Shown: positions 44,993 through 48,945 of the stretch, piece after piece
Layout of the letters: every line of letters begins with the position of its first letter
Numbering within the stretch: position 1 is the stretch's first letter
Origin: Acidimicrobiales bacterium
GTDB lineage: Bacteria > Actinomycetota > Acidimicrobiia > Acidimicrobiales > Iamiaceae
Direction of reading: 5' to 3'
Length of the DNA: 64,000 bases
Assembly (NCBI GenBank): GCA_035547835.1
Contig: DASZTW010000005.1
Coordinates: 1 to 64,000, forward strand
Translations under genes and position numbers: made by a program
Notes under the pieces: generated by a model
What the model saw: the letters and a program-made list of their open reading frames with translations, nothing else
Databases searched by the model: none
Told to the model about the DNA's origin: nothing

Positions 44993-46225
44993 CTATTGAC
45001 CGCGGCGCAGGCGCAAGATGAACATCCCGTCGGTGCCCACGGCCTGCGGCAGCAGCAGGGCGCCGCGGCCGTGCGGGCGCCACGGCGCGGCGGGTGGGTC
45101 CAAGGACACGAAGCCGTCGAGCTGTTCGGCGGCGAACTCGTCGATCCCTGTGGTCTCGGCGGCCGACAGCGTGCAGACGCTGTACACGAGCACCCCACCT
45201 GGCCGCACCAGGGGCGCGGCCGCGGCGAGCAGGCGCCGTTGCAGCGCGGCGAGGCGGTCGACCGCCTCGGGGTCGACCCGCCAGCGGGCGTCGGGCCTGC
45301 GGCGCAGGACACCGAGGCCCGCGCAGGGTGCGTCGAGCAGCACGCGGTCGAACGTCGCGGGCGGGAACGGCGGGTGCAAGGCGTCGGCGGTGGCCACCCC
45401 CACCTTGCCGGCCAGATCCAGCCGGGTGGCGTTGGCCGCGACCAGCCGTGCCCGGCTCGCGGTGCGGTCGGTGGCAGCCACCCATGCGCCCCCCGCGGTG
45501 AGGCCGGTGGCCTTGCCGCCGGGCGCGGCGCAGACGTCGACCACCCGGTCCCCGGGCCCCGCATCGATCAGGTCGACGACCCACTGGCTGGCGAGGTCCT
45601 GCACGTAGCCGTCGGCGCGGGTGGTCACTTCCGGCGCCTCGTTCATCTGTGCGAGGGCGGCGAGCGCGTCGGCATCGCCGAGGTCGGCGCGCAGCCGTTC
45701 GACCACGTGGTCGGGATAGCTCAGGCGCGTCGCGTCGTCGGGCCACGGCAGGGCGGCCGGCGGGTCCGTGGCGCGGCGGCGGGCTTCGTCGTCGGCCACG
45801 CGTCGCAGCACTGCGTTGACCAGCCCACGTGCGCGACCGTCGACCAGCCCGACCGTCGCGGAGACCGCCGCGTGCGGCGGGACCCCCATGTGGTGCAGTT
45901 GGTATGCGCCGAGTCGCAGCACGCGGCGCACTTCGGGATCGAGGTCGCGCAGCACGAACCGGTCGACCAGCCAGTCGCACGCCCGTCGCATGCGCGTGGT
46001 GCCGTACACCAGCTCGGTCACGAGCGCCCGGTCGCGGCGGTCGAGCTTCGAGCGGCCCAGCAGCGGCGGGAGCACGAGGTTCGCGTAGGCGTCCTCTTCC
46101 TCGATGCGGGCCAGCGCAGTGAGCGCCACGCGGCGCGCGTCGTCCCGGCGAGCCGGTTTCGGTGCGGGCCGGGGGATCGACGGTCGGCGAGGTCGGGGCG
46201 GACGGCCACCGCGGCGCTCAGCCAC
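44993..46225 (-). CDS. rsmB: 16S rRNA (cytosine-5) methyltransferase RsmB
   Basis: A 410-residue RsmB/Sun protein. Residues 30-160 form a NusB-like RNA-binding domain (RRVALTALARIEEEDAY); the methyltransferase domain has VVDVCAAPGGKATGL for SAM, LLDAPCAGLG with the resolving Cys and YSVCTLS with the catalytic Cys. The GTG at 46225 overlaps the fmt stop by 8 bases. fmt-rsmB is a widespread gene pair. Confidence 0.95.
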   Translation of the reverse strand: MAERRGGRPPRPRRPSIPRPAPKPARRDDARRVALTALARIEEEDAYANLVLPPLLGRSKLDRRDRALVTELVYGTTRMRRACDWLVDRFVLRDLDPEVRRVLRLGAYQLHHMGVPPHAAVSATVGLVDGRARGLVNAVLRRVADDEARRRATDPPAALPWPDDATRLSYPDHVVERLRADLGDADALAALAQMNEAPEVTTRADGYVQDLASQWVVDLIDAGPGDRVVDVCAAPGGKATGLTAGGAWVAATDRTASRARLVAANATRLDLAGKVGVATADALHPPFPPATFDRVLLDAPCAGLGVLRRRPDARWRVDPEAVDRLAALQRRLLAAAAPLVRPGGVLVYSVCTLSAAETTGIDEFAAEQLDGFVSLDPPAAPWRPHGRGALLLPQAVGTDGMFILRLRRGQ

Positions 46226-47108
46226 CCAGCACGACCTCGCCGGGATGGCCGCGTCGCCAATCGGCCGCGGCCATCGGGCGCTTCCCTTCGGGCTGCACCT
46301 CCACGAGCTCCAGAGAACCGTCGCCGCACGCGACGACCGTGCCGTCCACGGTTCCGGGTGGACGGGTCGGCCCGCCTCCCCCGCTGGTCGGTCGGGCAGC
46401 GAGGACTTTCAAGCGGCGCCCGCCGGCGGTCGTCCAGGCGTTGCCCACCCGCACCACACGATCGACCTCGTTGGCCGGTCGGCGCCAGTCGAGGTGGAAG
46501 TCGTCGGCAGTGAGCTTGTCGGCGTACGTGACCTCGCCCCGTTGCGGGGCCGGTGGGGCGAAGCCCTCGGTCAAGCCGTCGAGCAGCAGCGAGATGCCGG
46601 CGTCGACCAGCTCGACGCGGAGCTCTTCGAGCGTCGACCGCGGGCCAATGGGCACCTCGCGGCGGGCGAACACGTCGCCGGCGTCGAGCTCGTCGACCAC
46701 GTCCATCAAGCAGACGCCGGTCACCTCGTCGCCGGCCAGGAGCGCCCGCTCGACCGGCGCCGCGCCGCGCCAGCGCGGCAGCAACGAGAAGTGCAGGTTG
46801 ACCATCGGCAGCGCGGCGAGCACGTGCGGCTTGATCAGCCGACCGAACGCCACGACGACCCCGAGCTCGGCGCCCACGGTGAGCGCTTCATCGACGTCGG
46901 TGGTGCTGGCCAAGCCGAGCGCGGCGGCCGCGGCCTTGACCGGGCTCGGCTCCGCGGCACCGCGGCGCCCCCGGCGCTTGTCCGCGCGGGTGACCACGAG
47001 CGGCACCTCATAGCCCGCTTCGACAAGGGCGTGGAGCGGCGCCACGGCGAGCTCCGGCGTGCCCAGGTACACCAGACGGTGCGGCCGATCGGGCAGCGGA
47101 AGCGTCAC
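46218..47108 (-). CDS. fmt: Methionyl-tRNA formyltransferase
   Basis: A 296-residue Fmt that formylates initiator tRNA with formyl-THF. NLHFSLLPRWRGAAPVERAL carries the catalytic Asn and His, and the Asp is in DVVDELDAGDV. The C-terminal OB-fold recognises the tRNA acceptor stem. GTG at 47108 lies 19 bases after def. The open frame further upstream is def read out of frame. The protein is slightly shorter than average. Confidence 0.96.
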   Translation of the reverse strand: MTLPLPDRPHRLVYLGTPELAVAPLHALVEAGYEVPLVVTRADKRRGRRGAAEPSPVKAAAAALGLASTTDVDEALTVGAELGVVVAFGRLIKPHVLAALPMVNLHFSLLPRWRGAAPVERALLAGDEVTGVCLMDVVDELDAGDVFARREVPIGPRSTLEELRVELVDAGISLLLDGLTEGFAPPAPQRGEVTYADKLTADDFHLDWRRPANEVDRVVRVGNAWTTAGGRRLKVLAARPTSGGGGPTRPPGTVDGTVVACGDGSLELVEVQPEGKRPMAAADWRRGHPGEVVLGG

Positions 47109-47127
47109 CGGCGCGACCGGCGACCGG

Positions 47128-47664
47128 TCAACCGAGGCGCAGCCCGAGCGAGGGCGCGGCCGCAGGGGTTGCGTCGCGCGCCAGCACCAGCTCGCGCAGC
47201 GCGCGGCGCGCCTCCTTGCGCTGGTCGCCGTTGAGGCGGTCGACGAACAGCACACCGTCGAGGTGGTCGAGCTCGTGCTGGAAGCAGCGACCTTCGAGCT
47301 CTTCGGCCTCGATCGACACCGCGTTGCCGTCGAGGTCGTAGCCGACCAGGTGCACCCGGTTGGGCCGCACCAACTCGAACGACAGACCGGGGATCGACAA
47401 GCACCCTTCCTCGTAGGCCCACTCGCCGTCTGCCTCGATGATCTGCGGGTTCACGATCGTGTGCGCGCCGTCTCCGGTGTCGTAGACGAACATCCGCTTT
47501 TGCACTCCCACCTGCGGCGCGGCGAGGCCGAGGCCGGGCGCCTCGTACATCGTGACGATCATGTCGTCGGCCAGCTTGACGAGCGCGCCGTCGATGTCGG
47601 TCACCTCGGCGGCGACCTGCTTCAACACCGGGTCGCCGTACTGGCGAATCTGATGGGGTGCCAT
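47128..47664 (-). CDS. def: Peptide deformylase
   Basis: A 178-residue deformylase that removes the N-formyl group from nascent proteins. The three motifs are GLGLAAPQVG, EEGCLSIPG (metal-ligand Cys) and QHELDHLDG (HEXXH). The ATG at 47664 is chosen: a TTG three codons upstream is in frame but has no ribosome binding site. A GGAGG lies only two bases before the ATG, and TAGCCT eight bases before it, so the message may be leaderless. Its start faces that of the divergent methyltransferase gene only 25 bases away. Confidence 0.96.
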   Translation of the reverse strand: MAPHQIRQYGDPVLKQVAAEVTDIDGALVKLADDMIVTMYEAPGLGLAAPQVGVQKRMFVYDTGDGAHTIVNPQIIEADGEWAYEEGCLSIPGLSFELVRPNRVHLVGYDLDGNAVSIEAEELEGRCFQHELDHLDGVLFVDRLNGDQRKEARRALRELVLARDATPAAAPSLGLRLG

Positions 47665-47672
47665 GACCTCCA

Positions 47673-47682
47673 AGGCTACCGT
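47673..47682. promoter_or_regulatory. Overlapping divergent -10 boxes of def and the RsmC-like gene
   Basis: On the minus strand TAGCCT (47678-47673) lies eight bases before the def ATG; on the plus strand TACCGT (47677-47682) lies seven bases before the methyltransferase GTG. They share the two central bases T-A. Both fit leaderless transcription. Confidence 0.6.
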
Positions 47683-47689
47683 TTGGCCG

Positions 47690-48385
47690 GTGAGGCCCCG
47701 ACCTGCCGACCCCTCCGGAGACCCAGGTGGCCCTCCGCCAGCTGCCGCGGGCAGCCACTACTTCACCGCGTCGCCCACCGCCAGGTCGCGCCGGTCGACG
47801 GTGCGGCTCGTGCTTCCCGACCTTCACGTCGAGCTGGTCACCGATCGTGGCGTGTTCGCAGCCGAACGGGTCGACGCAGGCACCAAGGCGTTGCTCCTCG
47901 ACGGGCCACCGCTGCCGCAAGGAGCCGTCGACCTGGTCGACCTGGGTGCGGGTTACGGCCCGATCGCCGTCACGTTGGCGCGGCGGGCGCCCGGGGCCAC
48001 GGTGTGGGCGGTCGAAGTGAACGAGCGCGCCCGCGAGCTGTGCGTCGAGAACGCCGCCGCGGCGGGGGTGAGCAAGCAAGTGCGGGTGGTGGCGCCCGAC
48101 GAGGTGCCGGCCGACCTCCAGGTGGCGGCGCTGTGGTCGAACCCGCCGATCCGGATCGGCAAGCGAGCGCTCCACGAGCTGCTGACCCAGTGGCTCGGTC
48201 GGCTGGCGCGCGGCGGAACCGCGGCCCTGGTGGTGCAGCGCCACCTGGGCGCCGACTCGCTCGCACGCTGGCTGACGCAGCAGGGCTGGCAGGTCGCCCG
48301 GCGCGCCTCAAAGGGCGGCTACCGGCTGCTCGACGTGAAACCGCGGTCGACCGGGCCCGTGGGCGGGCGAGAATCGAGCACATGA
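47690..48385 (+). CDS. RsmC-like class I SAM-dependent methyltransferase
   Basis: A 231-residue MTS-domain methyltransferase. HYFTASPTARSRRSTV starts the fold, VDLGAGYGPIAVTLAR binds SAM, and SNPPIRIG is the NPP-type catalytic motif of N-methyltransferases. The nearest known function is 16S rRNA G1207 methylation (RsmC), though this is only the second half of an RsmC. The GTG at 47690 is preferred to the ATG at 47663, which overlaps the def start; a -10 box seven bases before the GTG supports it. It overlaps the next gene as ATGA. Confidence 0.85.
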   Translation: MRPRPADPSGDPGGPPPAAAGSHYFTASPTARSRRSTVRLVLPDLHVELVTDRGVFAAERVDAGTKALLLDGPPLPQGAVDLVDLGAGYGPIAVTLARRAPGATVWAVEVNERARELCVENAAAAGVSKQVRVVAPDEVPADLQVAALWSNPPIRIGKRALHELLTQWLGRLARGGTAALVVQRHLGADSLARWLTQQGWQVARRASKGGYRLLDVKPRSTGPVGGRESST

Positions 48386-48945
48386 AGCAACTCGGTTCGA
48401 CCGACCAGAAGCGATTGAACCGCACATGGCGGCGCCGCACTGACCAGCGGGTCGCGCTGGTGCTGGACCGCCTCCAGCAACCGTTCAACGTGGGCTCCAT
48501 CATCCGCACCGCCGCCGTCTTGCGAGTGGAGGACATCTGGGCCGTGTCCGACACGCCCGGGCCCGAGGTGGCGAAAGTCGCCAAGATCGCGCTGGGCACC
48601 GAGCGCTACCTCGACTGGCACCGCGTCCCCACCGCCGGGGCGGCCGCCGAGGCCGCCCGGTCCGCGGGTTACCTGGTGGTCGGCCTCGAGCTGGCCGGCG
48701 GCGCGACACCAGCCCACGAAACGGACCTGTCGGGCCCGGTGTGCCTCGCCATCGGCCACGAGGACCGCGGCTTGTCGCCCGCCGCGCTCGATGCCTGCGA
48801 CCAGGTCGTGTACGTGCCGCAAGTGGGTCGCGTCGGGTCGCTCAACGTGGCGCAGGCGGCCGCGATCGGCATGTACGAAGTGCGGCGGCAGGGTTGGGCG
48901 GCCGGCGCCCAGGTCGGCGCCGCCGAGCCGGTGGAGGAAGCGTGA
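48382..48945 (+). CDS. SpoU/TrmH-family tRNA/rRNA 2'-O-methyltransferase
   Basis: A 187-residue, single-domain SPOUT methyltransferase. Motifs are PFNVGSIIRTAAVL, LAIGHEDRGLSP and SLNVAQAAAIGMYEV. The length and lack of an N-terminal RNA-binding domain resemble TrmH (tRNA Gm18) more than the rRNA enzymes. The ATG at 48382 overlaps the stop of the methyltransferase upstream by 4 bases; its own stop overlaps the PhzF-like gene as TGATG. Confidence 0.9.
   Translation: MKQLGSTDQKRLNRTWRRRTDQRVALVLDRLQQPFNVGSIIRTAAVLRVEDIWAVSDTPGPEVAKVAKIALGTERYLDWHRVPTAGAAAEAARSAGYLVVGLELAGGATPAHETDLSGPVCLAIGHEDRGLSPAALDACDQVVYVPQVGRVGSLNVAQAAAIGMYEVRRQGWAAGAQVGAAEPVEEA

Follow-up and report, generated by a model that had tools for sequence, protein, structure and literature searches.

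The window, by which we mean the whole stretch of 64,000 nucleotides that was analysed, contains the gene for a peptide deformylase (def) on the minus strand and, divergent from it, the gene for a methyltransferase on the plus strand (Table 1). The earlier note had tied def to a methyltransferase of ribosomal RNA type. A divergent methyltransferase of the MTS fold is indeed recognised by Pfam, but the rRNA type is not borne out, as the protein shows little resemblance to RsmC, PrmC and others, with every score well short of the NCBIfam cut-offs. We considered RsmC (16S rRNA G1207) in particular and rejected it, since NF007023 gave 23.6 bits against a cut-off of 295, leaving the MTS domain as the only assignment. 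The gene for a SpoU-family RNA methylase follows and is likely to be carried on the same transcript. Downstream of def, Pfam identified an RsmB/F-type gene besides the formyltransferase. No tRNA genes were found in the window with ARAGORN.

Table 1. Genes and predicted promoter elements around the divergent def and methyltransferase starts (positions in the window).
Feature	Position	Strand	Evidence
def, peptide deformylase	47128..47664	-	Pfam PF01327, E 3.6e-49; NCBIfam TIGR00079, above cut-off
MTS-domain (class I) methyltransferase	47690..48385	+	Pfam PF05175, E 8.9e-24; below every NCBIfam cut-off
SpoU-family RNA methylase	48382..48945	+	Pfam PF00588, E 9.2e-34; ATGA overlap with methyltransferase stop
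fmt-type formyltransferase (provisional start), downstream of def	46218..47129	-	Pfam PF00551 and PF02911
TA dinucleotide common to both -10 boxes	47677..47678		sequence; 24/37 divergent relatives
def -10 box TAGCCT, CGG before it on the same strand (CGN-type extended -10)	47673..47678	-	sequence; a TANNNT 6-9 bases before def in 60/60 loci
Methyltransferase -10 box TACCGT	47677..47682	+	sequence; in-frame RTG 6-8 bases on in 24/24 shared-core loci
def start codon ATG, predicted leaderless 5' end	47662..47664	-	8-base gap to -10
Methyltransferase start codon GTG, predicted leaderless 5' end	47690..47692	+	7-base gap; position conserved

The start codons of the two genes face away from each other with 25 bases between them. 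Two candidate -10 elements lie in this space on opposite strands, TAGCCT at 8 bases from the def ATG and TACCGT at 7 bases from the methyltransferase GTG, and they have the bases TA in common, so that both TANNNT boxes are contained in a core of 10 bp, AGGCTACCGT (47673-47682). The earlier note had described two outward-facing start codons 25 bases apart, two boxes with a common TA, and gaps of 7-8 bases from box to start, and each of these readings proved exact in the sequence. A GGAGG string is present 2 bases 5' of the def ATG, which is closer than the usual Shine-Dalgarno site, although it may still act as one and counts against a leaderless def. No promoter of the TTGACA/TATAAT type was detected in a scan of positions 47500-47850.

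A TANNNT motif about 12 bp before the start codon is reported to mark leaderless genes (PMC3160421), and the main promoter of M. tuberculosis is described as TANNNT, often preceded by CGN and without a -35 motif (PMC3898074). According to work on mycobacteria, an RTG at +1 is sufficient for leaderless translation (PMC4633059). The first T of TANNNT lies 14 bp from the start of def and 13 bp from that of the methyltransferase, in keeping with the first of these descriptions. Bidirectional promoters that arise through symmetry of the -10 element are likewise a known kind (PMC12825309, PMC10268837), with start sites reported to be commonly 18, and also 10 and 23, bp apart (PMC12825309). By its geometry, the layout with a shared TA corresponds to the 23-bp class of that report; the mapping is by arithmetic, as the usual distance from box to start in this register would place the two start sites 23 bp apart. 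The first bases of the two start codons, taken as a proxy for the start sites, are 26 bp apart in the window, 3 above that value. The gaps of 7-8 bases exceed the optimum for a transcript start exactly at the codon by 1-2 bases, which counts against such a start, and they fit predicted transcript starts at the codon or 1-2 bases before it.

The arrangement was compared among relatives by taking one def locus per genome from the same family and order, with the window's own genome among them; 60 of 61 genomes contributed a locus, and the remaining one had no def match. Three loci (L013, L014, L025) were replaced by others from the same places (L063, L062, L064), and L001 was omitted for overlap. 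With the def -10 box chosen as the TANNNT closest to a gap of 7.5 within the range 4-11, a TANNNT was present 6-9 bases 5' of def in all 60 loci. Of the 60 loci, 37 proved to have a divergent methyltransferase; the group without one was defined by tblastn over about 0.6-1.5 kb of upstream DNA and may include contig ends. The shared-TA core, ANNNTANNNT, was present in 24 of the 37 loci with a divergent methyltransferase, compared to 1 of the 23 without (Fisher p 2e-6, relatedness uncorrected). The symmetric A is accordingly lost where no divergent partner was found, being present in 1/23, and def loci without a divergent gene keep only the def half of the core, at the same distance to the start.

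In every one of the 24 shared-core loci, an in-frame RTG of the methyltransferase (GTG or ATG) was located 6-8 bases from the box opposite to that of def, with 23-26 bases between the two start codons. These loci are spread over 8 family codes, 17 of them falling in the window's own family, and the most frequent core, read along def, is ACGGTAGCCT. The TA, both end positions and the GG before the TA are identical in 24/24, compared to a variable column such as that three bases after the def box (8 C, 6 G, 5 A and 5 T). Because loci were assigned to this group by the TA and the end positions, finding these invariant adds no independent evidence; what we take to be independent, within this comparison of sequences, is the link of the core to the presence of the divergent gene and to the start codon of that gene. 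Shine-Dalgarno-like strings occurred in the last 14 bases before the start in 4/24 loci for def, the GGAGG of the window included, and in 0/24 for the methyltransferase.

The TA was not shared in the other 13 divergent loci. In 10 of these, a separate methyltransferase TANNNT was found 6-9 bases before a candidate start, and therefore both genes look leaderless whether or not the TA is shared; in the remaining 3 (L050, L055, L062) no methyltransferase TANNNT was found. When the state was placed on a tree of def proteins, no fewer than 11 changes of the shared label were needed across the 60 loci, and 9 when the 37 divergent loci were taken by themselves. On the best tree the shared and separate states switch repeatedly, and the well-supported branches alone force one change; the tree, a quick reconstruction in which 2 of 57 inner branches were starred, lacks the strength to separate gain from loss.

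We also examined the shared-TA layout elsewhere in the genome of the window. The loose pattern CAYN{6,9}ANNNTANNNTN{6,9}RTG gave 10 forward matches compared to 7 in a backward control, from which about 0.1 matches per 64 kb are expected by chance, and the letters alone are therefore not rare. Matches were then judged by a coding rule, which asked, on both sides, for 80 or more codons (60 at a contig end) and for codon-position G+C bias. Two divergent coding starts were found at 7 of the 10 matches and at 1 of 11 matches to an AT-core control (Fisher p 0.0075). It is the position at two divergent coding starts, together with conservation in relatives, and not the letters, that goes beyond chance. 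In each of the six pairs other than def, Pfam names at least one partner, and these include an enoyl-CoA hydratase with an AMP-binding enzyme, a UvrD helicase with a bacterial PH protein, an ABC1 kinase, a CoA transferase, a glycosyltransferase and a [2Fe-2S] protein. The 18-bp register (TANNNTA) was tried as an alternative and rejected for this genome, with 4 matches compared to 13 in the backward control; in contrast to the preference for 18 bp elsewhere, coding divergent starts lay at 2/4 of these matches, compared to 7/10 for the shared TA.

When 298 genomes of the order were scanned with the tighter pattern CATN{6,9}AGGNTACCGTN{6,8}RTG, 83 matches were obtained in 74 genomes, compared to 15 in the backward control. 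Fourteen of the 83 were def loci already in the sample, and 51 of the 69 newly checked passed the coding rule on both sides (def, 19/23; others, 32/46). Five genomes with a family code in common (L208, L210, L211, L213, L214) have a shared-TA core from which two tRNA synthetases, of class I E/Q type and class II, diverge, and a Pup ligase with a small divergent gene was seen on one core in a further set (L212, L230, L231, L244, L248, L249). GroES, a translation GTPase and a seryl-tRNA synthetase were single order-wide cases with the core. At two order-wide def loci (L260, L266), TACCGT and a nearby RTG are kept, yet the divergent frame runs to only 12-14 codons; a frame error, a small peptide or a relic are each possible explanations.

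In the public genome collection, the def pair was present among the matches listed in records titled Acidimicrobiales and Candidatus Microthrix. When 80 listed of at least 117 matches of a similar pattern were divided by phylum, as assigned from record titles, frames of 80 codons or more lay on both sides in 32 of 37 Actinomycetota records compared to 7 of 43 others (p 2e-10). The most frequent named pair among the matches listed was murB with a DUF2505 protein. This divergent pair was seen with one and the same core, AGGNTACCGT, and with spacing of the leaderless type in Pseudonocardiaceae-type genera and in mycobacteria (L125, L120, L149, L162 and similar). In two Dormiibacterota records (L106, L135) the core is flanked on both sides by open frames whose composition looks coding, a hint that the layout may extend beyond Actinomycetota. 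The raw count of the pattern in 149 genomes of the phylum gave no excess over the backward control in many of them; background matches dominate such counts, which are therefore uninformative phylum-wide, and only matches checked for coding on both sides separate. Elsewhere in the phylum, certain genomes had far more matches to the loose pattern than to its backward control (G179, 19 to 1; G169, 22 to 4; G143, 10 to 1).

Taken from comparative sequence, AGGCTACCGT is very probably one bidirectional promoter core in the shared-TA register, giving two leaderless mRNAs. A minimal bidirectional leaderless promoter was the central proposal of the earlier note, and it is the best supported comparatively, given the TA-sharing core with fixed gaps of 6-8 bases in 24 of 37 divergent loci and the near absence of the symmetric A from loci lacking a partner. 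Two readings deny this. The methyltransferase may start at the ATG at 47663, which is in frame, open and overlaps the def start, or may be transcribed from further upstream, in which case the promoter here would serve def alone. A start at the relative position of this ATG was available in only 4 of 24 comparable loci, however, compared to an RTG beside the opposite box in all 24, and that RTG is the sole candidate within the range examined in 18/24; we regard this reading as very improbable. The strong conservation of the pseudo-symmetric core ANGNTANCNT could instead indicate the binding site of a regulator recognising a dyad, with the resemblance to -10 elements being secondary. Such a regulator appears very improbable to us when def loci without a divergent gene keep the def half only, at an unchanged distance to the start, when each half has a fixed gap to a start codon, and when the core also occurs before unrelated genes such as those for tRNA synthetases, Pup ligase, groES and murB.

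A third reading accepts both promoters and denies only that they are functionally coupled. Compaction of the genome may have brought two leaderless promoters to overlap, with the shared TA being tolerated and having no regulatory consequence. The promoters are kept apart in 13/37 divergent loci and the def tree carries 9 changes between shared and separate among these loci, from which it follows that either state works, and E. coli bidirectional promoters are reported to have low basal activity that minimises interference (PMC12825309). Overlap is nevertheless restricted to a single register, as 24 loci share the TA and none of the 10 further loci with a located methyltransferase box overlaps in another register, and that register is met again at gene pairs unrelated to this one. 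We hold overlap by compaction to be a serious possibility, falling somewhat short of an even chance.

With the core acting as a bidirectional promoter, RNA polymerase carrying the housekeeping sigma factor would bind it in either orientation, and a single TA could serve both promoters because TA is its own reverse complement. In one orientation TAGCCT would be used and def transcribed, and in the other TACCGT would be used for the methyltransferase operon. The inner hexamer bases of one strand would coincide with the extended -10 triplet of the other promoter, so that no separate -35 element may be needed. On the opposite strand, the CGG extension of the def box reads as the CCG within TACCGT, and 10 bp would therefore encode two extended boxes. 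Transcription of both genes would begin no more than 1-2 bases from the start codon, and the mRNAs would be translated as leaderless messages. Two polymerases reportedly cannot occupy a bidirectional promoter together (PMC12825309); we infer for this locus the actual start sites, the occupancy by polymerase, mutual exclusion of polymerases, the choice of direction and the coupling.

A stronger proposal, which we put forward tentatively, is that in the actinobacteria of this order the shared-TA register may be a selected module, in which 10 bp hold two interlocking extended -10 promoters, the hexamer of each doubling as the extension triplet of the other, and leaderless RTG codons flanking them at a fixed distance. 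A single polymerase would have to take one direction or the other at any time, and the outputs of translation and housekeeping genes paired in this way would therefore be tied together.

The arrangement resembles the symmetric -10 bidirectional promoters of Warman, Grainger and colleagues in using one -10 region for both strands. Unlike the bidirectional promoters of E. coli and Salmonella, for which 18 bp is reported as the commonest spacing (PMC12825309, PMC10268837), both products here are predicted to be leaderless mRNAs, and conservation at one locus extends over 8 family codes. It resembles actinobacterial leaderless genes in having TANNNT about 12 bp before an RTG, with an optional CGN and, across most shared-core loci though not before def in the window, no Shine-Dalgarno-like string, but two such genes stand back to back on one TA here. 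Closely juxtaposed divergent promoters are described as common in M. tuberculosis, and prpD/Rv1129c offers a divergent pair whose mRNAs are both leaderless (PMC3898074), as is predicted here. Both ingredients, bidirectional -10 elements and actinobacterial leaderless genes, are known. Their conserved fusion on a shared TA, with leaderless mRNAs in both directions, was not recognised in any paper returned by a literature search made mostly among openly accessible papers.

If the module exists as proposed, it would tie the output of def to that of RNA methylases, and would act similarly on two tRNA synthetases, Pup ligase, groES and murB. The rule RTG, 6-9 bases, ANNNTANNNT, 6-9 bases, RTG would predict bidirectional double-leaderless promoters in actinobacteria from the genome alone, mycobacteria (murB/DUF2505) included. 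Whether opposing polymerases on one core fix the ratio of the two outputs now becomes a testable question at conserved housekeeping genes.
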